Part shown: one piece after another, positions 2,331 through 44,348 of the stretch | How the letters are laid out: every line of letters starts with the position of its first letter | How positions within the stretch are numbered: position 1 is the stretch's first letter | Source of the DNA: Ardenticatena maritima | GTDB lineage: Bacteria; Chloroflexota; Anaerolineae; Ardenticatenales; Ardenticatenaceae | Assembly: GCF_001306175.1 (NCBI RefSeq) | Contig: NZ_LGKN01000005.1 | Coordinates: 62,001-126,000, forward strand | DNA: 64,000 nt | Reading direction: 5' to 3' | Translations under genes and position numbers: made by a program | The notes under the pieces: generated by a model | Told to the model about the DNA's origin: nothing | What the model saw: the letters and a program-made list of their open reading frames with translations, nothing else | Database searches by the model: none

Positions 2331-2363
2331 AAAAACAGACCTGACGGCGTCAGGTCTGTTTTT
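2331..2363. terminator. Bidirectional intrinsic terminator between priA and the PH-domain gene
   Basis: A perfect hairpin has arms AAAAACAGACCTGAC and GTCAGGTCTGTTTTT around a GGC loop. The A-run on one side and T-run on the other make it a rho-independent terminator for both convergent genes. Confidence 0.92.
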
Positions 2364-12319: not shown

Positions 12320-15300
12320 TTATTTCTGGGTGGGCGCGACAATGGGATACTCGGAAGAGTCAGACGACCACAAGAAATGACACCCATCGGCAAACGTCAT
12401 GTCCCACTCAAAAGCGACGGATTGCGCCCAGCCAATTTGAGCCATGAGACGTTGCGCCGGTAACCATTGCACTTTTTCCAATGCTAATTTTACAGGCGAT
12501 GCGGCAGGGACTTTTATTTGTGGCGCAAGGATGGCATCATCCGCCAACAGAGTGAGAACCATTAAGGGCGCTGGGTCTGACCATGTCAACGTCCATGTCG
12601 ATGGAGAAAGCGGCTGTTCCGTCGCGTTGACCATTTCTATAAACCAAACGCCTTCCTGTTGGAACAGTCGTGTCAACCGCACACCACATGTTGAAGGAGT
12701 GGGTGGGAATGGCGTAAGCGCCGGTTCGAGCAGAGGTGTCGGCGTATTCGTCGGTGTTGAGGTTGGTGTCGACGTGTTGGTTAGTGTCGGCGTGTTCGTT
12801 GGTGTCGGCGTCGGCGTGCTCATCGGTATGGGCGTGCTCGTTGGTGTCGGCGTCGGTGTAGGCGTGCTTGTGATGGGCAACGGCGGTGTCGTCGTTTTCG
12901 ATGGGAACATTGGTAAAGGTGAATACGTTGGCGTTGGCATCCCCCCCTGCCCTGGTGTAGGCGTGTTGGTTGGCGTTGGCGAGCGTGTTGGTATGCTCGT
13001 CAACACAAGAACAGGTGGCAGAGTGGGGTGTGGCTGAGGTGTTGGTCCAATGATGCTCAACGCATTGCACATTCCGCTCCCAGAATGGCGGTTTTGTGGC
13101 GTCGCCAGTTGCCATACAAAATCGCGAGCATTATCGTTCGTATCACGGCATAAGCCATAGGCGCCATCTGAACGACGCCCCCAGGCTCCATCAAAAAATG
13201 TTTGAGCATACGAAGAATCGAGTGGTGTACCTTCACCAAATAAAGTCTGTGCTGTCCACCCCACTTCATCTGCAATAGTCAAGCCATCCGGTTCTACCAA
13301 GGCGATACCAACCCGTTTCGGAATACCAGTGGTATAAACCAAATCCGGCGGAATTGGCGAATGATATCCAGGTCCGGCTAGCAAAAGATGTTGCCCCGGC
13401 AACAATCGCACAGAAGGAAACTCAAACCATCTGCTTGCCAAGTTAGGATGCGCCGAAACCCAGATACTCCATCCTTCCAGGTCTATTGATTCATTACTTT
13501 GATTGTATAATTCAATAAATTCATCATCAGCACCATTGACACCATACGTTCGTACTTCACTGAGACGTACCGGCGCCCTGGCATCACGGTGCGTCGGTAA
13601 GCGCGGCGCTCGAGAAACCAGCGGGTCAAAAGCGATAACGGGCGTTTGTGTCGGCAAAGGCATCGGCGTAGGGCTTGCAGCCGTCGCAACACGCCCCTGC
13701 GACAACGGCGAGAGCGCACTCAACGTTCCGCAATTATTCCGCTCACGCGGTGTTCCATAAATAGTTGCGCCACTTCCGTCTCTTGATGTTCCCAACGCAC
13801 TTGTACACCAACTGGTACTCAACCCTCCATCGTCAGGTGGGTTCCCCGTTCGAGCCATGGAAGTTGTCGATGAGCCTGCATACCATGCACCATTGCGGTT
13901 TGCCCGTTCGAATGCTGCAAAGTTTTCGTCAACGTCAAACAGTTCAAGCAACGCGCCACTGTCAGAAAGTCTGTCAGTCCCCCACAAGATGTCGCCGGCA
14001 ATATCTGTACTGTTTGCCTGACGCTCAATCAGATAGTATGCACCAGGGTAAAGCAAGATTGTTTCCGTTGCCGGTATCAATGGTGCAGGAGCAGGTGGGT
14101 CAATCACAATTTCTGAAAATGGTGTCGCATCACTATTTGAAACTGTTATCTTGAACGCCAACCGGATAACAACACTATTTGTCGTGTCAGGATTTTTCAA
14201 TTCGATGTACTCATAATCACCATTCCCCCACATAATTTCATTGAAAATGACCTGACGAGTGTCAAATTTTTGGCGTACATATACCGTCAACGATGCTGTG
14301 TTCGATGTTGCTATGTTATCCGTCAATGTAAACGTACATGTATCAGTATATGTACCCAGAGCGGGTGTATACCAGATTGAACGCTCACTCGTCACCACAG
14401 TCCCATTATTGCAGGTTGCTGAAGAAACACGTATCGGGTCAAACTCGGCATCAAATGCATTAAAAGTGGCATCCAGGACAAAACCTCTTCCCTCGTAAGT
14501 GTAGACTATTATATCCTTCGCTTGGGGTGGCGTATTCGCACAAGACGTACATGTTGTAAATTGCGTTTTGACCGTTACTCCCATATTTCTATTTTCGGCA
14601 TTTTGGACCAGCGTTTTTACAATGACATGATATGTTGTACCTGGAGAAAGTGAACTGAGTGGACGCAGGTAAGCTTTTTGAGTTCCCGGATCATACGCCA
14701 CGGTTGCAGGAACCGCCTGCGCCCCTGATGGATTTGTTGAAAGCAAGATATTTGTCGTATTAATAGTTAGGTCATTCATTGGCTGGTTAAATTGAATTAC
14801 AATCTCCGGCATCAAAGAGACCCCTGTTGCACCATCTCCAGGAGCAATCCACTGCACATGCCCACCTAAGTACGTATACGGCGTAGGCGTCGGTGTAGGC
14901 AACACCGGCGTCGGCGTGGGCGTGTTCGTCGGCGTCGGTGTCGGTGTGTTCGTCGGCGTCGGTGTGGGCGTGTTCGTCGGCGTGGGCGTGGGCGTGTTCG
15001 TCGGCGTCGGCGTCGGCGGCACCGGCGTGGGTGTCGGTGTGCTCGTTGGCGTCGGCGTGGGCGTGTTCGTCGGCGTCGGCGTGGGCGTGCTGGTCGGCGT
15101 CGGCGTGGGCGTCGGCGTGGGCGTCGGTGTGTTCGTCGGCGTCGGCGTGCTGGTTGGCGTCGGTGTCGGCGTGTTCGTCGGCGTCGGTGTCGGTGTGTTC
15201 GTCGGCGTCGGCGTCGGCGTGCTGGTCGGCGTCGGCGTCGGCGGCACCGGCGTGGGCGTGTTCGTCGGCATCGGCGTTGGCGGCACCGGCGTGGGTGTCG

Positions 15301-19483: not shown

Positions 19484-19626
19484 AACACAACGATTGCAAC
19501 CAGATGCACAGGTTTGGACGAATTCGCCGCAAATTTTTGAAAAAGTGCTCTCTTGTTGCGGGATTTTACCTACACATGTGATAAAGTGTTACAAACCGCT
19601 ACATACATGATATGAGGGCTACCACA

Positions 19627-20676
19627 ATGGAAAAGATCGAGGGAAAAGCCACGCGCCTGGAGCAAATGATTTACATTCTCCTCGCCTATCCGGAAGGACT
19701 TACCCGAGCGGAAATTGCGCGTCGTTTGGGGGTTCATCGTTCCACAGTGGCACGATATGTCCATGACTTGGAACAGTTGGGCATCCCCATTTGGATAGAC
19801 GGACAACGCGTTGGCATCAACTCTGACGCGTATCAGATAAAAGTGGGCGTGACCATTCATGAAGCCACAGCCATACATTTGGCCGCACGCCTCATGGCAA
19901 CACGCATGGACGAGCGAAACCCACATGCAGCCAGTGCCCTGCGCAAGCTGGGCCACGAGTTACGTATCCTCGCGCCCCATGTGAGCCGCCACCTCCTTCT
20001 TTCTGCCGAGGTAATAGAAGCACAAGCACAACGTCAAGACCCTGTTTTTATCACCATTTTGGAAACGCTCACTCGTGCCTGGTCCCAAGGGCGCAAGGTA
20101 AAAGTATGGCACTGGCATGAGAAAACAAATCGGGTTTATGAATATCTGCTCTCTCCCTATTTTCTCGAACCCTATGCAGTAGGGCGGACAATCCATGTGA
20201 TCGGATTTCGTGAGCCACCGGGGGCTATCCGCACGCTGAAAGTAGAACGTATTCGACGCGCCGAAATTACGGCAACACCCTACACCATCCCCCACGATTT
20301 CGACCCCCGCAATCTGCTGCGCGATGCGTGGGGTATCTGGTACACCGAAGAAGAACCAGTAGAGGTTATTTTACGCTTTCATCCACGTGTGGCTCACAGA
20401 GTGAAAGAAACGCGCTGGCATCCATCTGAACACCTGGAAGAACAACCCAATGGTGCGCTCATCTGGCGGGCGCGGGTGGCTGAGCCGCAAGAAATGCTCC
20501 CCTGGATTCGCGGTTGGGGTGCAGATGTTGAGGTGCTAGCTCCCGAGGAATTGCGCCTGACCCTCATTCGTGAAGCGAAAGCGTTGGCGCGCTTATATGG
20601 CGTTGCGTCAGAACCAACACCCGATGACCCTGACTACGACCAAAAACGTTTCCAGCAACTCTTTGATACGGAGTAA
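19627..20676 (+). CDS. WYL-type HTH transcriptional regulator of the CRISPR-Cas operon
   Basis: A 349-residue regulator with an N-terminal DeoR/HTH_11 winged helix (LTRAEIARRLGVHRSTVARYVHDLEQLGI, about residues 22-55) and a WYL-like ligand-binding region (about 158-215), followed by a C-terminal WCX-like extension. The ATG at 19627 has GAGGG 8 nt upstream; an in-frame ATG at 19612 lacks a site. The stop is 4 nt before the cas3 ATG, so it is cotranscribed with the cas genes. WYL proteins are known regulators of several CRISPR systems; autoregulation of this operon is the simplest inference. Confidence 0.88.
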   Translation: MEKIEGKATRLEQMIYILLAYPEGLTRAEIARRLGVHRSTVARYVHDLEQLGIPIWIDGQRVGINSDAYQIKVGVTIHEATAIHLAARLMATRMDERNPHAASALRKLGHELRILAPHVSRHLLLSAEVIEAQAQRQDPVFITILETLTRAWSQGRKVKVWHWHEKTNRVYEYLLSPYFLEPYAVGRTIHVIGFREPPGAIRTLKVERIRRAEITATPYTIPHDFDPRNLLRDAWGIWYTEEEPVEVILRFHPRVAHRVKETRWHPSEHLEEQPNGALIWRARVAEPQEMLPWIRGWGADVEVLAPEELRLTLIREAKALARLYGVASEPTPDDPDYDQKRFQQLFDTE

Positions 20677-20680
20677 TTGC

Positions 20681-23281
20681 ATGAAACTCTACCCCTACCA
20701 GATACAGGTTGCTCAACTCTTACGCAATGGCACCAGTGTTCTTCTTCAGGCGCCGACTGGGGCAGGCAAAACCCTGGCTGCACTTTGGCCCTTTCTCGAA
20801 GCATGGGACCGAGATGATCCCGAAATGTTTCCACGCCAAGCCATCTATACCGTACCGATGCGCGTACTTGCCAACCAATTTTTGACGGAGACACGCCGCC
20901 TGGTCCAACGACTCCGCACCCCTACTTTGCCCCACATTACCATCCAAACGGGCGAGCAACCATTGGACCCTGAATTTCGGGGGGACATAATCTTCACAAC
21001 TCTCGACCAAACACTGAGCAGCCTGTTGGGAGTTCCGTACAGCCTTTCTACTACACGCTCCAACCTGAATGTAGGTGCAGTACTTGGGTCCTACCTCGTT
21101 TTTGATGAATTTCATCTTTTCCCATACGAAGCCTCTCTCACTGTGCTGCAACTCTTGCGCCAGATCGGACGCATTACGCCCTTTGTGCTCATGACGGCCA
21201 CATTCTCCAGCACGCTACTACAGCAAATTGCCACCCTGCTCAGGGATTCTGGAGTCACCGTGGAGACAGTGGTCGTATCACCTGAAGAAGCACGCGCTAT
21301 CGCGACACGTGACCAACAGAAGGAACGCCGTTTTTACATAGCGGATACACCACTGATTGATTTGGAAAACGGTACACACCAAGCCCAAAACATTCTGGGC
21401 CATCACCATCAGCGCTCGTTAGTTGTTGTAAACACTGTAGGACGAGCACAGTCTATGTATGAAGCTTTACTGAACGCGGGGGCGCAAGGTATCCCCTTCT
21501 CTTCTTTGGTCACGGATGAAGAATACGAAGAGGCACTGAGAGCAAGTTTACAGAAAGAAGAAAAGGGGCAGAAAACGAGTGAAAACCCGTGGCTCCCCTT
21601 GGTCGAACGGGTTCGCGAACACCTCCTTCAGCACGCGGAAGCCCCCTGGGTGATGTTGCTGCACAGCCGATTTGAGAGCAAACATCGGCGTTTCAAAGAA
21701 GAACTTTTGCGCATGCTCTGGGGGCCAAAAAGTACAGAAGCGCAACAACCCTCCATCATCGTTATCGCGACCCAAGTTGTCGAAGTCGGATTGGATATCA
21801 GTGCTGAGGTTCTACACACAGAAAGCGCGCCTGCAGCCGCGGTGCTCCAGCGGGCGGGGCGCTGTGCGCGTTATCCCGGAGAAAAAGGGCGTGTCTATGT
21901 GTATCCAGCCCCTCCACAAGCCAATGGTATGCCCAATTTCAAACCTTATGACCAGACAACTGTCGAACGGGAGACGTGCGAACGTTCGTGGGCTGCACTG
22001 CAAAAGTACCATGGTCAAGTCGTGGATTTCCCTGAAGAGCAAGCTATTATTGATGAAGCACACACCAAGCAAGATGAAGCGTTGCTAAACGATATTGATC
22101 AAAAAGAAGGGGAGATCTGGCGTGGCATATGCGATGCACTAGACCTGGGCATTACCGCCACACGCACCCAACTCATTCGTAATACCATCTCCTCACGCAC
22201 GATTATCGTGTATGATGCGCCTGATGAAAGCGAAGAACCGCCCTTTGGTCGTGAGGGATTTTCCATCCACATTGGTTCACTCCATGCATCTCTTGGAGAA
22301 CTTCGCACATTGCAGAATACCCTTGGCTTGGAATGGGCGTTGCGCCGATTAGAAGTTCGCGAAGGGAAGGACGACAACGAGGCCCTTTATTTCTGGCTTC
22401 CTGTGAATACCAATGAAGACTTGCAAGGTGCATTCTTCCTCGCCGTACATCCACACTTGGCCGCCTATGACGCGGAGCGTGGATTCCGCCTCGGTGTGGC
22501 AAGCAACGGCAATTATGAATCTTCAATCACATTTCGCCCCCTTCGGGAGCAACCCGATTACGGAGCGTATCAGTTGGAATGCTACCACGAACATATTGAA
22601 GGTATGGTGAAGGTACTGAAAATGGGCCCCTGGGAGAAGCGCTTTGCCTGGTCTGCCCGTCGCCTGGCGGAAGTTTTAGGCATTTCCAAAGAAGCGGTAT
22701 GGCAGATGCTCTATTTGACCATTGCTCTGCACGATGTGGGCAAACTGCAAAAAGATTGGCAAAAGTGGGCGTGGATATATCAGAAACGTATTGGTCAACC
22801 GCTTTACGAGAACCACTGTCTGGTTGCCCACACGTGGAGTGATGGCAGCGAAACACACAAGCAAATTGCCCGATCAGTGCGGCCGAAACGTCCACCACAT
22901 GCTGCTGAAGGGGCCGTAGCCTCCTGGCCTCTTCTCTATCAGCAGCTGGACAACAGCCAAGGGCGGGGGTGGTTGGCACGTATCGTTTGCACGGCCATTG
23001 CTCGCCACCATGCCGCGCGGGCGAGCAATGTGAGCCCTTTCTGTATGCACCCCCGTGCCCCACAAGCCGTCCATACCGCCATGAAAGCCATTGGCAAATG
23101 GGGAGAAAGCGTAGATGAAACGAAGTTGCTTCTCAGGCATTCGGCGCCTCGATTGGAGGACTATCTCATTGACCCACCAGATGAGCGCGCTTCCGACGAC
23201 GTGTGGTGGGACTGGTGGGCGTACTTCTTGCTGGTGCGAACTTTACGACTGACTGATGGACTGTCACAGGAACGAAGATAG
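20681..23281 (+). CDS. cas3: Cas3 helicase-nuclease with C-terminal HD domain
   Basis: An 866-residue type I effector that unwinds and degrades target DNA recruited by Cascade. The helicase comes first: Walker A in QAPTGAGKT (about residue 24), DEFH box in VFDEFHLF, motif III MTATFS, motif VI QRAGRCARYP. The HD nuclease follows: LHDVGKLQ with His684-Asp685, then histidines in NHCLVAHTW and ARHHAAR. Most Cas3 proteins have HD at the N-terminus, so this helicase-HD order is unusual. Start: ATG 20681, nearly abutting the WYL gene, matching the conserved N-terminus YPYQIQ. No frameshift is seen and key motifs are intact. Confidence 0.93.
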   Translation: MKLYPYQIQVAQLLRNGTSVLLQAPTGAGKTLAALWPFLEAWDRDDPEMFPRQAIYTVPMRVLANQFLTETRRLVQRLRTPTLPHITIQTGEQPLDPEFRGDIIFTTLDQTLSSLLGVPYSLSTTRSNLNVGAVLGSYLVFDEFHLFPYEASLTVLQLLRQIGRITPFVLMTATFSSTLLQQIATLLRDSGVTVETVVVSPEEARAIATRDQQKERRFYIADTPLIDLENGTHQAQNILGHHHQRSLVVVNTVGRAQSMYEALLNAGAQGIPFSSLVTDEEYEEALRASLQKEEKGQKTSENPWLPLVERVREHLLQHAEAPWVMLLHSRFESKHRRFKEELLRMLWGPKSTEAQQPSIIVIATQVVEVGLDISAEVLHTESAPAAAVLQRAGRCARYPGEKGRVYVYPAPPQANGMPNFKPYDQTTVERETCERSWAALQKYHGQVVDFPEEQAIIDEAHTKQDEALLNDIDQKEGEIWRGICDALDLGITATRTQLIRNTISSRTIIVYDAPDESEEPPFGREGFSIHIGSLHASLGELRTLQNTLGLEWALRRLEVREGKDDNEALYFWLPVNTNEDLQGAFFLAVHPHLAAYDAERGFRLGVASNGNYESSITFRPLREQPDYGAYQLECYHEHIEGMVKVLKMGPWEKRFAWSARRLAEVLGISKEAVWQMLYLTIALHDVGKLQKDWQKWAWIYQKRIGQPLYENHCLVAHTWSDGSETHKQIARSVRPKRPPHAAEGAVASWPLLYQQLDNSQGRGWLARIVCTAIARHHAARASNVSPFCMHPRAPQAVHTAMKAIGKWGESVDETKLLLRHSAPRLEDYLIDPPDERASDDVWWDWWAYFLLVRTLRLTDGLSQERR

Positions 23282-23331
23282 TCCGCCTAGAAGGTCCCGT
23301 TTTGAAGACATCACATGTAGGAGGAGACGAT

Positions 23332-25134
23332 ATGACGCTTCGCGTACCCAAAACCTCTCAAACCTACGCCGATGCGCTGTTAGCTCTGGGCCTCGCCAGG
23401 CTCGTTGACCGTTGGCTGAGTCAGGTGCAAGGCTGGCGGGATCTGTTCGTTGTTGACGCAGGGGCTTATTACGAAATTCGCGTTGTGGACCGCCGCGAGC
23501 AGATCTTTCCCCTGCCCGACCCCATGCAGGCCCGATATTTCGCCAGCATCGCCCGCTATATCAAAAGCAAACACTTCGCTGAGCTCCCTGAGGAACGATT
23601 TCCTTCTCGTGACGTGGATAAGGTATGGGAGCGTGTGCGCACATACGCCAATTCGCGTAGCAGCCTGAGCAAAAAAGGCGTCAAGGGCACAGAGGCCGAA
23701 CAACAACAACTGAAAGACAATGAGCCACCACCCGAATGGCAAATTGTGGCTTGGCTTGGTACGCGCCAGATGCAAGCTCTGCCAACCTACAATAAGATTG
23801 TTGCCGCCTGGGCACGATTGGAGCAACACTTCCCCCAGTATCTTCAAGCCTTTCTGTCACTGGCAACCCAGGCGGAAGATGCCGAAAGTGTGTACAAAGA
23901 GTGGCGTCGGCTTGCCAAAGAGGATGGCGTACCCAATACCGTTACCGCCTCCCAGTTGCTCAACCCACATCAGGGAAAGGGACAAAATCAACCCAAAATT
24001 GCTTCTCTCCAGCCAAGCAATATGAGCAATCCATGGCCAATCGAGTACCTGAAGGCGGCTGGCCTCTGGGAAATCACTTTCCCACGTCAGACATCCGATA
24101 CGAAAGACTGGAAAGTGTACGTCCTGGCGCCACGGCGTATCTGGATACGTGATCTCCGTCGGGTGTATGCTCGTTTCGCTCGCACATTATGGCGTGAACG
24201 CCGTCAGGACACCACCAGCCTGAAAACGGATATCACTAGCATTCTGCTCTTCTACCAAACTTGGCTGGACTACTCACTGGAGCACGCAAACGATCCAAAT
24301 GTACCCACCAACCCCACCACGGTCGTCCACGGTTTCTATACCGTGCAGTTCAAAATGATGAGTCGGAACGCCTATACAATGCTCAACCAATCCTTCCTGC
24401 ACCTGCCGGAGTGGGGCAAGGATATCAAGACACAGGAAGACGTACAGAGTTGGAAACATCTCCTCCAAGAGCATCTGAACGTTGTACATAGCATTGATGA
24501 GAGGCATAGTGGTGGCTACGACTTACTCAAAGAGTATCGGGATTTCGTCGCTGGCGGGAAGTGGGAGGCTTTCTTCAATTTTACACGAGGATATGCCCAC
24601 TACCTTATGCAACGGTTAGCACAGAATCAGTATGCTGTTCAATTCACCACAAACAATCTAAGGAGGTTACTCATGACTGGACCAAAGAGATTTTCTCAAA
24701 TTCTCGAAACCCCAGGGTTTCAGGAAATCGCATACGCAATCCGACACAGCACCGTTATTCCTCAATTTTGGAAGGCGCAGTACAAACGCCAAAAGACGAA
24801 TGAGCCGCCGCTCTATGAAGTGCGCTATGGGTTGGCCGCAGAACTCCAACGCAAGGCCACAGTTGCCGAGGAGTTCATTACTGCGCTCATGAATTTCTTG
24901 CAAAGTTACAATCAGGAAAACGCCCAAAAACTGGAAAGCACTGGAAAGCAACGGCGTAAAGATGTGCGGACTACAGCCATTGACGAGATTGTACATCTCA
25001 TTGACGAATATGGTTCCGAGGTTGTTGCCAATCTGCTCATTGCCTATGGCTACGCTCGTGAACCCCGCGAAAATGTGGAAGAAACGGGAGAAGCGCCCGT
25101 TTTAGAAGAAAACGTGGAAGAACATGCAGAATAG
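23332..25134 (+). CDS. cas8: Cas8-like large subunit of a type I CRISPR effector, subtype unassigned
   Basis: A 600-residue protein between cas3 and cas7, the position of the Cascade large subunit that recognises the PAM. I did not recognise a named Cas8 family with certainty; the assignment rests on position, size and a helical C-terminus. There are no CxxC zinc fingers or GGDEF/HD motifs, so it is not Cas10-like. The ATG at 23332 follows TAGGAGGAGACGAT. A perfect internal ribosome site and in-frame ATG at codon 448 suggest that the C-terminal 153 residues are also made as a separate small subunit. The last 25 residues are Glu-rich. Confidence 0.8.
   Translation: MTLRVPKTSQTYADALLALGLARLVDRWLSQVQGWRDLFVVDAGAYYEIRVVDRREQIFPLPDPMQARYFASIARYIKSKHFAELPEERFPSRDVDKVWERVRTYANSRSSLSKKGVKGTEAEQQQLKDNEPPPEWQIVAWLGTRQMQALPTYNKIVAAWARLEQHFPQYLQAFLSLATQAEDAESVYKEWRRLAKEDGVPNTVTASQLLNPHQGKGQNQPKIASLQPSNMSNPWPIEYLKAAGLWEITFPRQTSDTKDWKVYVLAPRRIWIRDLRRVYARFARTLWRERRQDTTSLKTDITSILLFYQTWLDYSLEHANDPNVPTNPTTVVHGFYTVQFKMMSRNAYTMLNQSFLHLPEWGKDIKTQEDVQSWKHLLQEHLNVVHSIDERHSGGYDLLKEYRDFVAGGKWEAFFNFTRGYAHYLMQRLAQNQYAVQFTTNNLRRLLMTGPKRFSQILETPGFQEIAYAIRHSTVIPQFWKAQYKRQKTNEPPLYEVRYGLAAELQRKATVAEEFITALMNFLQSYNQENAQKLESTGKQRRKDVRTTAIDEIVHLIDEYGSEVVANLLIAYGYAREPRENVEETGEAPVLEENVEEHAE
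24660..24667 (+). promoter_or_regulatory. Internal Shine-Dalgarno sequence inside cas8
   Basis: AAGGAGGT is fully complementary to the 3' end of 16S rRNA and ends 5 nt before an in-frame ATG at 24673 (6 nt after GGAGG). It is encoded across Leu-Arg-Arg-Leu using tandem AGG codons, whereas arginine elsewhere in cas8 is mostly CGN, suggesting selection for the ribosome site. Confidence 0.8.
24673..25134 (+). CDS. cas11: Predicted Cas11 small subunit translated from inside cas8
   Basis: This in-frame internal ORF would give a 153-residue, helix-rich protein starting MTGPKRFSQILETPG and ending with the Cas8 C-terminus. Size and helical character fit Cascade small subunits (Cas11), several copies of which line the crRNA-target belly. 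Internal translation of Cas11 from the large-subunit gene is established for subtypes I-B, I-C and I-D. The evidence here is the perfect ribosome site with ideal spacing, tandem AGG codons, and the absence of a separate small-subunit gene in the operon. Expression is not proven. Confidence 0.72.
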   Translation: MTGPKRFSQILETPGFQEIAYAIRHSTVIPQFWKAQYKRQKTNEPPLYEVRYGLAAELQRKATVAEEFITALMNFLQSYNQENAQKLESTGKQRRKDVRTTAIDEIVHLIDEYGSEVVANLLIAYGYAREPRENVEETGEAPVLEENVEEHAE

Positions 25135-25144
25135 GAGGCGAACC

Positions 25145-26089
25145 ATGACTGAACAAAAAGCCGTCTATGCTCTTTCTATCTCCGGCCGCCTGACTCTGGA
25201 GATGCACTCTCTGAATAACGAAGGGGGAGAAGGCAACCAGACCATGACCCGTACTGTGGCTATCGTCACCCCTGATGGCAATGTCCACAAGGTCAATGCG
25301 ATTAGCGGCGATATGTTCAAACATATTCAAGCCGAGCACTACTATCTGTTGGCAAAGGAAGGGCGACTGCCTTTGTGCCGCGGGTGCCAAGTCTTCGATG
25401 CTGCCCGTATCCTCGCCGACAAAGAGTTTCTCAACAACCTCCCCAAGACAGACGAAGATGTACTGAATCAATTACTCTCTTACTGCGCCCTTGACGATAC
25501 AGAAGGGACACTCATTGCCCGTGGAGCTCGCTCCATTCCCCGCAAATCCATCGCCGAGTTCGCATGGGTGGTGGGTATTCCCGAAAAAGTACGTACCGAG
25601 TCCTACTTCCATGTGCGCTACGCACGCGAACGTGGCGGCGAGGAAGCCACCGATCAACCCATCTTCCATCGCCCCGCGTCCTCTGGTGTGTATGCGTCTG
25701 TCGCCACCTTTGAAATCGCACGCATTGGCTTCAATGACGTGAGTCAGACCTACGCAATTGACGCCGAAGAGCGTCAGCGCCGCTATGAAACCTTCTTGAA
25801 GAGCGTCATGTACACCTATATCGAACCCAGTGGCGCTATGCGTGGCACCCAGAACCCTCATATCCACGCCTTCGAGGGTGTCATTACCATCAGTTATGGC
25901 GTCATGCCCGCACCGACCATCAGCCCTTTGGCCGATGAATATGCCGACCAAATTGCACGTATTGCGCAAAACCTGGACCCTGAAGGCACTGTTTTGGAAG
26001 TCAAACGATTCGAGAATATGGCCGAATTTACCGAGATGATGCAAGGCATTTTGCAGAACACGCGCCCATATACGCTCTTCGCATCATAG
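25145..26089 (+). CDS. cas7: Cas7 (DevR/Csa2-like) Cascade backbone
   Basis: A 314-residue RAMP protein of the DevR/MJ0381-type Cas7 group. It shows ALSISGRLTLEMHSLNNEG at the N-terminus, the segment VNAISGDMFKHIQAEHY and the middle region ARGARSIPRKSIAEFAWVVGIP. It forms the helical backbone that binds the crRNA spacer. The ATG at 25145 follows AGGAGGCGAACC and lies 10 nt after cas8. The DevR-type Cas7 points towards an I-A/I-B-like effector, not I-C, I-E, I-F or I-G. Confidence 0.88.
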   Translation: MTEQKAVYALSISGRLTLEMHSLNNEGGEGNQTMTRTVAIVTPDGNVHKVNAISGDMFKHIQAEHYYLLAKEGRLPLCRGCQVFDAARILADKEFLNNLPKTDEDVLNQLLSYCALDDTEGTLIARGARSIPRKSIAEFAWVVGIPEKVRTESYFHVRYARERGGEEATDQPIFHRPASSGVYASVATFEIARIGFNDVSQTYAIDAEERQRRYETFLKSVMYTYIEPSGAMRGTQNPHIHAFEGVITISYGVMPAPTISPLADEYADQIARIAQNLDPEGTVLEVKRFENMAEFTEMMQGILQNTRPYTLFAS

Positions 26090-26099
26090 GAGGGATGCT

Positions 26100-26816
26100 A
26101 TGCCCTGGCTCATTGCCTATTACCAACCTGTAGGGCTATTTTCCCTGAAACACGGAGAAGCCACCTCCACAGGAGGAAAAAGCCTGCTTATACCCACCCC
26201 TTTTAGCATTCGTACCGCGCTGGTGGATGCAGCTCTGCGCATAGAAGGTATCCAACGGGCCGAAGAAATTGTAGAAGACGTCAGGAGGCTGTCCTTGGCT
26301 ATCAAGCCGCCGAAGTATGTAGCTGTTAGCGCACTTTTTGCCAAAGTGCTCAAACCCGAACGTTCTGATGCAGATAGCGATCGCCCCTTCCAAAAAACTA
26401 TAGCCTTTCGTGAGTATGTGCATTGGTGGGGCACCTTGGGCGTGGCTCTCCAAGGAGATGCACCAATCTTGCATCGGGCAACTTCTTGGTTGGAGCATAT
26501 TACCTACTTCGGCAAGCGCGGCAGTCTCGTACAACTAGAAGCGTCACCATCTCTCCAGGATGACCTACCGCATGGCTTCGTTACTCTTCTTGGTCACGAC
26601 CTGAGCCAAGAGCTGCCCGCCTCGTTCCCTCTCGGGCTGCTTCAACGGGTAGATGAGTGGGGAAACGATCTCACCTGGGAGCGCCTGAATGTGTATAACC
26701 ACGCGGGTAAAATCCGTGTTGGGAAGGAGCGTATCCGCTTCGATGTCATCCTTCCTTACCAAATGACACAAGCGGGACGTGGGTTTACGGTGTACGAAAA
26801 TACGGGAGCAAAGTAA
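26100..26816 (+). CDS. cas5: Cas5
   Basis: A 238-residue protein in the Cas5 position directly after cas7. The first residues (MPWLIAYYQPVGLFSLKHGEA) form the initial RAMP strand, and PTPFSIRTALVDAALR matches the helix after the glycine-containing loop in archaeal-type Cas5 proteins. It should cap the 5' handle of the crRNA. The start is the ATG at 26100 with GGAGGGATGCT immediately upstream; it is 10 nt after cas7. Confidence 0.8.
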   Translation: MPWLIAYYQPVGLFSLKHGEATSTGGKSLLIPTPFSIRTALVDAALRIEGIQRAEEIVEDVRRLSLAIKPPKYVAVSALFAKVLKPERSDADSDRPFQKTIAFREYVHWWGTLGVALQGDAPILHRATSWLEHITYFGKRGSLVQLEASPSLQDDLPHGFVTLLGHDLSQELPASFPLGLLQRVDEWGNDLTWERLNVYNHAGKIRVGKERIRFDVILPYQMTQAGRGFTVYENTGAK

Positions 26817-26836
26817 CGCAATCGAGAGTAACAATG

Positions 26837-26889
26837 GCAGGCGGTTGTTCACGATGAAGATAGGCACGGCGAAAAGAACAACCGCCTGC
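26837..26889 (+). promoter_or_regulatory. Perfect 14-bp inverted repeat between cas5 and cas6
   Basis: Arms GCAGGCGGTTGTTC (26837-26850) and GAACAACCGCCTGC (26876-26889) are perfectly complementary around a 25-nt loop, in the only sizeable gap (101 nt) within the cas operon. No T-run follows, so transcription should pass. It could be an mRNA processing or stability element, a Cas6 binding site or a protein operator. Confidence 0.65.
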
Positions 26890-26917
26890 AAGACCAACAT
26901 CGAGGAAGAAAACACCT

Positions 26918-27928
26918 ATGCATAACTTGAAAGCCTGTATTCTCGAATTTACAGTCGCAGCGAAAACACCGCTCGAGCTCCCCCATTGGGCAGGTTCAGC
27001 ACTGCGAGGCGCGCTACTTGGCGTGCTCCGACGCCATTACTGCCCTGTGCCCGAAGGTGGCGATACAGCCCATACAGCCACCTGCCCAGCTTGCTGGCTT
27101 ATAGCACGCGAGAATCCGCAATGGTGGCGCGGACGTCAGCCCGTCCGACCTTACACTGTGGCTGTTTCCGGCGGTCAGGGTCGCCCTATAGACCACGTCC
27201 TCAACGGTGGTCCTGGCTGGTACCGGCTTGAGCCTGGCGATACGTTTACTTTCCGAATGACGCTCTTCGGTGTAGCTGTCAACCTGTTGCCCTACCTTGT
27301 ATTAGCTATACCCGCCATGGGGCAAATCGGTATAGGACGCAGAATGGCTGAGCTTCGGGGGAAACGAGGCCAGTTCACCCTACGACGCATCGAGGCGCTC
27401 AATCCTCTCACCGGACAACGCGAGTTGATTATGAAATCACCCAACCATGAGGTCACTGTGCCAACACTCTTTATAGACCAATCAACAATTGATGCGGCCA
27501 CCCATCGCCTATTAGATTCCATGACGCAGAATGAGATCACGGTACAATTTCGTTCGCCTACACGCTTGGTAGAACAAGGCCACTTGCTCAAGGTTCCGCA
27601 CTTCCGCCCCATCTTTCAACGATTGCTGGAACGAGTAGAGGGAGTGATTGATCAATACGCCGATGGAGAACCAGAATGGAACTACGCATCGCTCATTGAA
27701 GCAGCTACACAAGTGCGAATGGTTCGCAATCAAACTCATTGGGTGGAAGTGAAAAGTGGCTCTCGGCGTACGGGCAGAGTAACACCCCTGAGCGGCTTCG
27801 TGGGACAGGCCACCTATACCGCCAAAGACTGGCGCCCACTGCTCCCTATACTGCTGTGGGGCTGTGTTGTTCAAATAGGGCGAAGCACTGTGAAAGGGAA
27901 CGGGTGGATTTCGATCCACGCGGCATAA
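26918..27928 (+). CDS. cas6: Cas6 pre-crRNA endoribonuclease
   Basis: A 336-residue Cas6-type RAMP nuclease that cuts the CRISPR transcript within repeats. It has the N-terminal first RAMP fold (WAGSALRGALLGVLRRHYCP), a CPACW pair of cysteines typical of the COG5551-like group, and the C-terminal glycine-rich region RRTGRVTPLSGFVGQATYTAKDWRPLLPILLWG. It follows the 14-bp inverted repeat; GAGGAAG lies before the ATG at 26918. Catalytic histidines were not pinned down. Confidence 0.88.
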   Translation: MHNLKACILEFTVAAKTPLELPHWAGSALRGALLGVLRRHYCPVPEGGDTAHTATCPACWLIARENPQWWRGRQPVRPYTVAVSGGQGRPIDHVLNGGPGWYRLEPGDTFTFRMTLFGVAVNLLPYLVLAIPAMGQIGIGRRMAELRGKRGQFTLRRIEALNPLTGQRELIMKSPNHEVTVPTLFIDQSTIDAATHRLLDSMTQNEITVQFRSPTRLVEQGHLLKVPHFRPIFQRLLERVEGVIDQYADGEPEWNYASLIEAATQVRMVRNQTHWVEVKSGSRRTGRVTPLSGFVGQATYTAKDWRPLLPILLWGCVVQIGRSTVKGNGWISIHAA

Positions 27929-27961
27929 TACCAATTGCTGCCTGAAACCGGGAGGAAACCA

Positions 27962-28981
27962 GTGCCCAAGAAGTATCTCATCGCTGATGAATTCGGCACC
28001 CATATTGGCAAACATTCGCAACGCTTGCGGCTTACACGTTCCAAAACCCGCGAAAAACTGGGCGACTACCCTCTGCTGCACCTCGAAGCGGTACTCGTCT
28101 TATCCCAAGGTGTGAGTGTTTCAGCTGATGCGGTTCAGGCATGCAGCGAACGTGGTATTCCCATCTTCTTCATCGCGGGCACGGGCCGTGTGTACGCTCT
28201 GCTCTACAGTGCCGCATTGGTTGGGACGGTAAGCACTCGGCGCGCCCAAATTCGCGCCTACGATGATGAACGTGGGGTCGCCGTAGCTATTGCCATGGCG
28301 CAGGGAAAACTACGCAATCAGCGTGCTGCATTGCGCTATTTCGCCAAAAATGCCGAGGCAGTGCGTGCCGATGCCGTACAAATCGCAGCGCAGCATGTGC
28401 AAGATGGCATTGTCGAACTCGACCGCCTGCCCCGCACTGCTTCCCTTGACGAGATACGCAACATTCTTCTGGGCATCGAAGGACGTGCCGCCACCCATTA
28501 CTGGGAAGGTGTGCGCGCCATTCTGCGGCCAACATTCGACTGGCCAGGCCGCCGTACACGCGGGGCAAACGATGTTTTCAACCAAGCGCTCAATTACGGC
28601 TACGGGGTTCTCTACGGACAAGTCGAGCGCGCCTTGTTGCTCGCCGGGCTCGATCCCTACGCAGGCTTTCTCCACGCCGACCGCCCCGGCAAACCCAGCC
28701 TCGTTCTCGACCTCATTGAAGAATTTCGCCAACAGGTGGTAGACCGCCCTCTGATTGGCTACGTCAACAAGGGGGGACACCTGGAACAAGATGAGGAAGG
28801 CCTTGCGAAACCTACACGGCGTAAAATCGCCGAGTTGGTACTGGACCGATTGACGACGCGGATGCCCTTTGAGGGAGAACGTCTTTCACTCAACACAATT
28901 TTGCAAACACAGGCACGCCGGCTGGCGATGTTTCTGCGGGGTGAACGTGACGCCTATGAACCGTTTGTGGGAACGTGGTGA
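27962..28981 (+). CDS. cas1: Cas1 integrase
   Basis: A 339-residue spacer integrase. The expected metal ligands are visible: Glu about 173 in LLGIEGRAATHYW, His238 in FLHADRPGKPSLVLDL and the following acidic residues. The start is a GTG at 27962 with a perfect GGAGG 7 nt upstream; an in-frame TTG further left has no site. With Cas2 it captures and inserts new spacers. Motifs are intact, so adaptation should be functional. Confidence 0.95.
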   Translation: MPKKYLIADEFGTHIGKHSQRLRLTRSKTREKLGDYPLLHLEAVLVLSQGVSVSADAVQACSERGIPIFFIAGTGRVYALLYSAALVGTVSTRRAQIRAYDDERGVAVAIAMAQGKLRNQRAALRYFAKNAEAVRADAVQIAAQHVQDGIVELDRLPRTASLDEIRNILLGIEGRAATHYWEGVRAILRPTFDWPGRRTRGANDVFNQALNYGYGVLYGQVERALLLAGLDPYAGFLHADRPGKPSLVLDLIEEFRQQVVDRPLIGYVNKGGHLEQDEEGLAKPTRRKIAELVLDRLTTRMPFEGERLSLNTILQTQARRLAMFLRGERDAYEPFVGTW

Positions 28982-28989
28982 GGTATGCC

Positions 28990-29247
28990 ATGCGCTGCCT
29001 GCTCGTGTACGACATTCCGGACGATCGTACCCGGACGCGCGTTTCCGAAGCCTGCCTTGATTATGGGCTGGAACGCATTCAGTATAGCGCTTTCCTGGGT
29101 GAACTGACTCCCACCTACCGGCGTGAGCTGATGAAACGTTTGCGGCATATCCTCGGTAAGCACGACGGCAAAATCCAATGCTTCCCCCTCTGCGAACGCG
29201 ACTGGAACGCTCGCGATGAAATTATTCATCAAGAGACATCGACTTGA
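28990..29247 (+). CDS. cas2: Cas2
   Basis: An 85-residue ferredoxin-fold protein (MRCLLVYDIPDDRTRTRVSEAC) with the conserved Asp8 of the Cas2 family; it dimerises and bridges Cas1 dimers. The ATG at 28990 follows GAGG from the end of cas1 by 6 nt and was preferred to an upstream in-frame GTG. Its stop overlaps the cas4 start. Confidence 0.93.
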   Translation: MRCLLVYDIPDDRTRTRVSEACLDYGLERIQYSAFLGELTPTYRRELMKRLRHILGKHDGKIQCFPLCERDWNARDEIIHQETST

Positions 29248-29906
29248 AACGCAGGAGTCGTCCGGTGTATGCCACTCCTTCAACAGATGAACCGCTAGCG
29301 AACGAACCGCAAGCGCTCGCCATCGCTGATGGTCTCGATCCACTGATTCTCACCGCCAGCGATGTCAAACAATGGTTTGTTTGCGCTCGTGTGGTCTGGT
29401 ATCAACGCCTGCTGGGCACATGGCGCCCCACCACCTACGCCATGCAAGTCGGCGATGAGATGCACACACGCCAACGGGCTCGCCTGCGCCGTCGCCACCT
29501 ACGCACCTTGCCAGAGGGCGATTACCACATGGATATGCCCCTCTTCGATGCCGAACTGGGGCTCTCAGGACGCCCCGACCTGGTGATTGAAGCGCAGCAT
29601 GAACACATCCCCGTGGATTTCAAAGACAGCACCAACGTGCAGGGGAAGCATGTTGCCATGCAAATTGCCGCCTATGGTCTGCTTCTCATACGGCAAGGGC
29701 GGAAAGTCAAACGCGGTATTGTCTACAGTCTGCCACGCCGTCGTATGCGTGAAATTCGATTGGATACCCACCGCCTGCGCGAGGTTGAAAGCGTGGTTCA
29801 GTCCATGCACACGCATTTGCTGGCTGAGCAGTTGCCGCCGCCAACGACCAAGCGAGCGTTGTGTGTCTCGTGCGAATTTCGGCGCTACTGCAACGATGTT
29901 TTCTAA
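29244..29906 (+). CDS. cas4: Cas4 RecB-like exonuclease
   Basis: A 220-residue Cas4 that trims prespacers and sets PAM orientation with Cas1-Cas2. One cysteine lies in WFVCAR near the N-terminus and three in the C-terminal CVSCEFRRYC, the four ligands of the Fe-S cluster. RecB nuclease motifs are visible in GRPDLVIE and IPVDFKDS. The start is inferred as TTG at 29244, overlapping the cas2 stop (TTGA) for translational coupling; an alternative GTG lies at 29265. It is the last gene of the operon, and no array or terminator follows. Confidence 0.9.
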   Translation: MKRRSRPVYATPSTDEPLANEPQALAIADGLDPLILTASDVKQWFVCARVVWYQRLLGTWRPTTYAMQVGDEMHTRQRARLRRRHLRTLPEGDYHMDMPLFDAELGLSGRPDLVIEAQHEHIPVDFKDSTNVQGKHVAMQIAAYGLLLIRQGRKVKRGIVYSLPRRRMREIRLDTHRLREVESVVQSMHTHLLAEQLPPPTTKRALCVSCEFRRYCNDVF

Positions 29907-30704: not shown

Positions 30705-30741
30705 CAAAGAGCGGCGCATTGCTCGTGTGCGCCGCTCTTTG
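30705..30741. terminator. Bidirectional terminator between the CBS-ACT and rhodanese genes
   Basis: Arms CAAAGAGCGGCGCA and TGCGCCGCTCTTTG are perfectly complementary over 14 bp around a 9-nt loop, between convergent genes. Confidence 0.8.
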
Positions 30742-44318: not shown

Positions 44319-44348
44319 AAACGACCGCGTGGTTGCACGCGGTCGTTT
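44319..44348 (-). terminator. tmRNA terminator
   Basis: On the minus strand the perfect stem AAACGACCGCGTG / CACGCGGTCGTTT (13 bp, 4-nt loop) is followed by a T-rich TTGTTTTC tract, just after the tmRNA 3' end. Confidence 0.92.

Follow-up and report, generated by a model that had tools for sequence, protein, structure and literature searches.

A hairpin between cas5 and cas6 in a type I-A CRISPR-cas operon of Ardenticatena maritima: a candidate decay terminator, with a putative Cas6 site in the cas6 leaders of relatives

The stretch of Ardenticatena maritima DNA studied here, 64,000 nucleotides long and called the window below, carries a CRISPR-cas operon in the order WYL regulator, cas3, cas8, cas7, cas5, cas6, cas1, cas2, cas4 (Table 1). 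The PADLOC profiles matched are Cas8a, Cas5a, and Cas7/Csa2, and the operon is therefore of type I-A. By open reading frame coordinates, the successive gaps from cas3 to cas4 are 20 nt, an overlap, 10 nt, 101 nt, 6 nt, and two further overlaps; the 101 nt between cas5 and cas6 is the largest gap between cas genes, with the remaining genes at most 20 nt apart or overlapping. Among named relatives, the nearest in genome kinship is Ardenticatena MAG G001, of the same genus.

Table 1. Coordinates of the operon, the hairpin, and the terminators within the window
Feature	Position	Strand	Remarks
WYL-type regulator (HTH-WYL-WCX)	19612..20676	+	Upstream of cas3 and overlapping it
cas3	20570..23281	+	Helicase first, HD domain at the C-terminal end
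cas8 (Cas8a)	23302..25134	+	PADLOC Cas8a, E 2e-56; weak Cas11a match at the C-terminal end, E 1.1e-4
cas7 (DevR/Csa2 family)	25124..26089	+	Pfam E 8.6e-73; PADLOC Cas7/Csa2
cas5 (Cas5a)	26100..26816	+	PADLOC Cas5a, E 9.5e-52; final effector gene
Hairpin, 5' arm	26837..26850	+	GCAGGCGGTTGTTC
Hairpin, loop (25 nt)	26851..26875	+	No ATCC..GGAT stem and no resemblance to a CRISPR repeat seen
Hairpin, 3' arm	26876..26889	+	GAACAACCGCCTGC, followed by AAGACCAACATC; no T-run
cas6	26918..27928	+	Pfam CRISPR_Cas6, E 4.1e-14; ATG at 26918; opens the cas6-cas1-cas2-cas4 half
cas1	27935..28981	+	Pfam E 2.4e-69
cas2	28975..29247	+	Pfam E 5.9e-19
cas4	29244..29906	+	NCBIfam cas4, E 2.1e-29
Intrinsic terminator	2331..2363		
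Intrinsic terminator	30705..30741		14-bp perfect hairpin after the CBS-ACT gene downstream of cas4; T-rich tails on both strands; ordinary, terminator-like
Intrinsic terminator	44319..44348		

The cas5-cas6 gap holds a hairpin that begins 20 nt after the cas5 stop. The first-pass annotation had described a 14-bp perfect inverted repeat with a 25-nt loop, lying in the sole large gap of a packed operon, at the boundary between the effector genes and cas6 with the adaptation genes, and lacking a T-run, and each of these points is borne out: the arms pair at 14 of 14 positions, and the last stem bases and tail hold one T in 12 nt on the forward strand (five in 12 on the reverse). The RNA from 26815 to 26920 has a predicted folding energy of -29.7 kcal/mol (z = -4.16), equalled by none of 200 shuffles, and the stem persists in the folding prediction at 65 and 75 C. 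The inverted repeat is not due to chance. A mini-frame (ATG GCA GGC GGT TGT TCA CGA TGA, 26834-26857) crosses the 5' arm; no such frame was seen in the corresponding gap of L083, the nearest hairpin-bearing relative.

The genome's intrinsic terminators are likewise long perfect stems after genes, but they have T-rich tails. Perfect repeats no shorter than 11 bp, with a loop of at most 30 nt, were counted over 181 kb (the window and 117 kb more of the same genome). There are 21, including 11 of at least 12 bp; a T-rich tail, defined as at least six T in 12 nt on either strand, follows 10 of those 11, and the sole exception is the cas5-cas6 hairpin. Without a U-tract and absent from the list of a terminator scan, the hairpin is rejected as an intrinsic terminator on either strand. 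The two arms themselves are the only exact copies of their 14-mer in the 3.56-Mb genome, and allowing up to two mismatches gives 47 forward and 55 reverse places, the same level as a control (38 and 58). A search of the genome with the whole gap found no convincing second copy (best other match E 0.17), and by this single occurrence a dispersed palindrome of the REP or MITE kind is ruled out. Rfam at gathering scores reported only tmRNA and 5S rRNA across the window. Elsewhere in the window, positions 14906-15295 hold CGGCGT-rich tandem repeats whose units measure 6, 24, and 39 bases.

One test of the hairpin set by the first-pass annotation is conservation in related operons. Cas6 served to gather loci, from 24 of 60 relatives, from GTDB genomes (77 loci), and from 108 of the 396 genomes in the class. 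Profiles made from the window's proteins were then used to annotate 99 loci, with start codons picked by a simple rule. The spacing between cas5 and cas6 is 40-300 nt in 15 loci, under 40 nt in 12, and over 300 nt in 11. Not counted were L157, whose cas6 is broken and has a misplaced start; L138, whose cas6 occupies two frames; L108, where a single open frame spans cas5 and cas6; gaps outside 40-300 nt; and all cas2-cas4 junctions, where the cas4 starts are unsure. Of the 15 cas5-cas6 junctions of 40-300 nt, 10 contain a perfect stem no shorter than 9 bp with a loop of at most 30 nt; mononucleotide shuffles of the same 15 gaps predict 0.2. Among the other cas junctions the count is 5 of 76 (Fisher 1e-6). 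Hairpins thus recur at this place among relatives. The excess holds without the window (9 of 14, 4e-6); the hairpins of L083, L086, L087, L146, and L041 were noticed by eye before the stem threshold was set, and loci unseen before the idea arose have a stem in 4 of 7 (0.002). Folding energy in an earlier locus set, which included L157, gives z below -2 in 8 of 12 cas5-cas6 gaps and in 9 of 54 others. The excess is weaker in a cruder count, which takes any stem of 9 bp or more lying up to 140 nt ahead of the start: 8 of 67 cas6 genes have one, and 8 of 296 other cas genes.

The ten stems measure 14 bp in the window, 10 in L041, 11 in L083, 9 in L085, 12 in L086, 18 in L087, 10 in L100, 12 in L102, 15 in L146, and 11 in L200, while L048, L103, L130, L149, and L202 have room and no stem. 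The stem letters differ, the sole pair with a common 7-mer being L102 and L146, and the loops range from 3 to 29 nt. The tails contain zero to three T, and nine of the ten have no run of five T in the 40 nt after the stem; the exception is L087, with T-runs 15-21 nt downstream. Position is more uniform: nine of the ten stems overlap the cas5 stop (L102, L041) or begin at most 25 nt after it (5-22 nt in L086, L087, L200, L100, L085, the window, and L083), and only that of L146 begins farther on, at 128 nt. On a quick FastTree tree of Cas6, with L143, L148, L152, short and interrupted rows left out, the hairpin label changes four times over 15 rows, and the window's Cas6 joins L082 (support 87, not starred) and then L083. 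The gaps of the window and of L083, which is of the same genus, are unalignable, with 83 of 1000 shuffles scoring as well, and direct homology between them was set aside as not significant. The L083 gap also has no convincing second copy in its own genome, the best other match (E 0.046) being 82% identical over the hairpin. In L048 (G032:C112), the 67-nt gap before cas6 has repeat-like ends, CGATCC ... AGGATAC, around a GC-rich stem, as though a hairpin grew inside the loop of a repeat copy.

Many relatives have a further element at this junction, downstream of the hairpin and at the cas6 start, which resembles a CRISPR repeat. Among the 99 loci, 34 arrays were retained by length and by the presence of GAAA or TTTC, and every repeat has a 4-bp stem immediately before A(C/T)TGAAA, presumably the Cas6 site with its 8-nt handle. 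The stem occurs in six versions: ATCC/GGAT in 19 arrays, GCTC/GAGC in 7, ACCC/GGGT in 5, and three single ones. The window's genome has three arrays of the ATCC/GGAT version, and its CRISPR repeat has the stem ATCC-loop-GGAT followed by ACTGAAAG. The third of these is short (G000:C6:416450-416755, L211), with five repeats, the handle ATTGAAAC, and a degenerate last repeat; a solitary near-complete repeat also lies outside the arrays at G000:C9:100992-101006 (L210), reading CTTTCAGCCGTATTCGATCCGCAGGGGATAC....

The motif CGATCC-N3-10-GGAT is found within 60 nt before the start in 17 of 88 cas6 leaders and in none of 381 leaders of other cas genes (p 1e-13). The ATCC..GGAT stem alone is present in 22 cas6 leaders, including L128 and L139, where the match probably lies inside the preceding gene; CG precedes it in 17 and AC follows it in 11, as in the repeat, with binomial values of 7e-17 and 2e-8 that are too good because the rows are related. 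In L120 the match to the repeat extends through GGATACTGAAAA up to the ATG. The element is not just a ribosome-binding site, since in L087, L095, L193, L194, and L205 that site is found farther downstream. As a sequence, GGAGGAT is also suitable for ribosome binding, and this could favour the ATCC/GGAT version. On the quick FastTree tree it is scattered, with 12 changes, at least 10 of them forced by starred branches. Among the ten hairpin junctions it is present in seven, 8-133 nt after the hairpin (8-24 nt in five), and absent from the window's operon, L102, and L200.

In the window's genome, a whole-genome search for CGATCC-N3-9-GGAT returned the arrays, the leader of an orphan cas6, the solitary C9 repeat, and five scattered places, none of them in the window's operon, and a Cas6 site of this type is thus ruled out there. 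The orphan cas6 (G000:C5:220201; L056, 15078-16187) is 47% identical to the window's cas6, has no cas gene within the 40 kb examined, and is preceded by the repeat-like stem CGATCCACGGAGGAT at G000:C5:220152-220166. Leader stem and repeat stem show no significant association: the GGAT stem is in the leaders of 5 of 17 loci with GGAT-type repeats and of 1 of 15 others (p 0.18), none of the 15 loci with other repeat stems has its own stem before cas6, and L203 is a counter-case, with the element present and a nearby array of another stem. In 13 further genomes with leader elements, all draft assemblies in which array contigs may be missing, GGAT-type arrays are found in two (G113, G063), the only match in G038 is the cas6 leader itself, and ten have none.

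This repeat stem suggests that Cas6 may bind or cut its own mRNA. A wider reading, for Chloroflexota operons of type I-A and related types, makes the cas6 leader an RNA switch of two parts, in which the copy of the repeat stem next to the start would let Cas6 bind or cut its own mRNA, limiting itself and cas1-cas2-cas4, and the hairpin upstream would protect the effector mRNA; the window's operon would have lost the repeat copy, and the orphan cas6 would keep one. This is offered tentatively, as a possibility that is more probably wrong than right.

The junction is also a place where the operon varies. Eleven loci (L094, L095, L111, L121, L135, L147, L193, L194, L205, L206, L208) have 0.8-3.7 kb of extra sequence between cas5 and cas6, and effector halves seem to have been exchanged at this point. 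Some of these inserts hold open frames, one of which, in L111, resembles a REP-type transposase by eye.

The best explanation of the hairpin, held at about even chances, is that it is a decay terminator, an intercistronic RNA structure that marks where the effector half of the operon ends on its 3' side. A single transcript would span cas3-cas8-cas7-cas5-cas6-cas1-cas2-cas4, and its cas6-cas1-cas2-cas4 portion would be cut or begin to decay; 3'-to-5' exonucleases would then be halted by the 14-bp stem just past the cas5 stop, and the effector mRNA would outlast that of cas6 and the adaptation genes. In many relatives, Cas6 itself may do the cutting, at the repeat-like stem that lies between the hairpin and the start of cas6. 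The window's operon has no such site, and a cut there would therefore need another nuclease. The features found agree with a decay terminator: a stable stem between genes of one operon, no U-tract, and a structure kept in relatives. Judged on sequence, stems that are unlike in letters but alike in pairing and place, and that lack a U-tract, are characteristic of an RNA element in which shape counts. A split that would set effector against adaptation expression, as the first-pass annotation had proposed, is likewise part of this reading. The hairpin is not required, since 5 of the 15 junctions with room are stemless and 12 junctions have no room for it.

Pairing and place are kept and letters are not; an RNA structure is therefore favoured over a DNA operator. 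The operator reading, proposed in the first-pass annotation for cas6-cas4, would make the arms two inverted half-sites at an internal promoter for cas6-cas1-cas2-cas4, bound for example by the WYL-type regulator at the head of the operon (19612). The inversion of the half-sites, the presence of that regulator, and a weak promoter-like match at 26927, past the cas6 start, agree with it, but neither half-site letters nor spacing are kept among relatives and promoter-like matches show no excess (11, against 8.6 in shuffles), leaving it very unlikely. The hairpin could instead be the processing site itself, for RNase III or Cas6. Its stem is long and perfect, and Cas6-type sites lie nearby in seven of the ten hairpin junctions; in the case of Cas6, which the first-pass annotation had put forward, the arms do not resemble the genome's CRISPR repeat, differing from the repeat stem in letters and length, and the relatives' stems are unrelated to one another, whereas in a Cas6 site the letters would be retained, as they are in the cas6-leader element. 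This alternative is judged distinctly unlikely.

Partial termination or attenuation, with polymerase sometimes stopping at the stem without a U-tract and fewer transcripts reaching cas6, would have the same expected outcome as a decay terminator and suits both the location after the final effector gene and the T-runs beyond the L087 stem. The general want of T-runs, in nine of ten hairpins, the T-rich tails of the genome's other long stems, and the silence of the terminator scan on this hairpin speak against it, and it is considered unlikely. A neutral leftover at a module boundary, such as the remains of a terminator or of mobile palindromes with no present function, would fit a junction as variable as this one, with its eleven enlarged loci, its five stemless gaps, and L084, of the same family as the window, where cas3 lies directly before cas6. 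Perfect pairing of differing sequences, so much more frequent here than at other cas junctions, is however hard to keep without selection, and the gaps of the window and of L083 lack convincing second copies in their own genomes; this reading is regarded as quite unlikely.

Taken as a decay terminator, the hairpin most likely adds one more case to a class of intercistronic RNA structure that is already known. The sections of PMC5927463 drawn on here describe programmed decay in Escherichia coli, where protective structures downstream of stabilised genes hold back 3'-to-5' exonucleases; those structures are mostly inside coding regions, unlike the hairpin described here. The puf and malEFG hairpins, as the same sections present them, share the layout of the present one: each is a stem without a U-tract inside an operon, after a gene group expected to be needed in larger amounts (PMC5927463). 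The present hairpin differs from these in belonging to a CRISPR-cas operon, where it divides the effector genes from cas6, in being a candidate from sequence, and in being coupled in relatives with a repeat-like, putative Cas6 site.

The repeat copy in the cas6 leaders of relatives is the more novel part, as a putative and unproven Cas6 site. Racr RNA anti-CRISPRs, which are reportedly encoded by phages, are like this element solitary repeat mimics, but the element lies in the cas6 leader. The ectopic repeats of CreTA are, within the portion of PMC9458426 consulted, also degenerate CRISPR repeats outside arrays and near cas genes, and Cas6 can act on them. CreA, in that same portion, has repeat-spacer-repeat units that guide Cascade to the toxin promoter, whereas the cas6-leader element is one repeat stem by itself at the start of cas6, and no second repeat was seen in that gap. 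The relevant part of PMC8616872 covers self-control by DevTRS and by Cas9, and does not extend it to Cas6 and its own mRNA. In the openly licensed literature, preprints excluded, no report was found of a Cas6 site in a cas6 leader or of a cas5-cas6 hairpin.

Each effector complex contains many copies of Cas7. The hairpin lies between the effector genes, whose products are required in high copy, and the half made up of cas6 and the adaptation genes. Little Cas1-Cas2 and much Cas7 is a plausible need, because spacer acquisition risks self-immunity. If the decay-terminator reading is true, the ratio of interference proteins to those for guide processing and spacer acquisition would be set post-transcriptionally, at a fixed point in the operon that is kept by structure and not by sequence. 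If Cas6 acts on the repeat copy in the leaders of relatives, there would also be a direct feedback loop from the guide-processing enzyme to its own gene.
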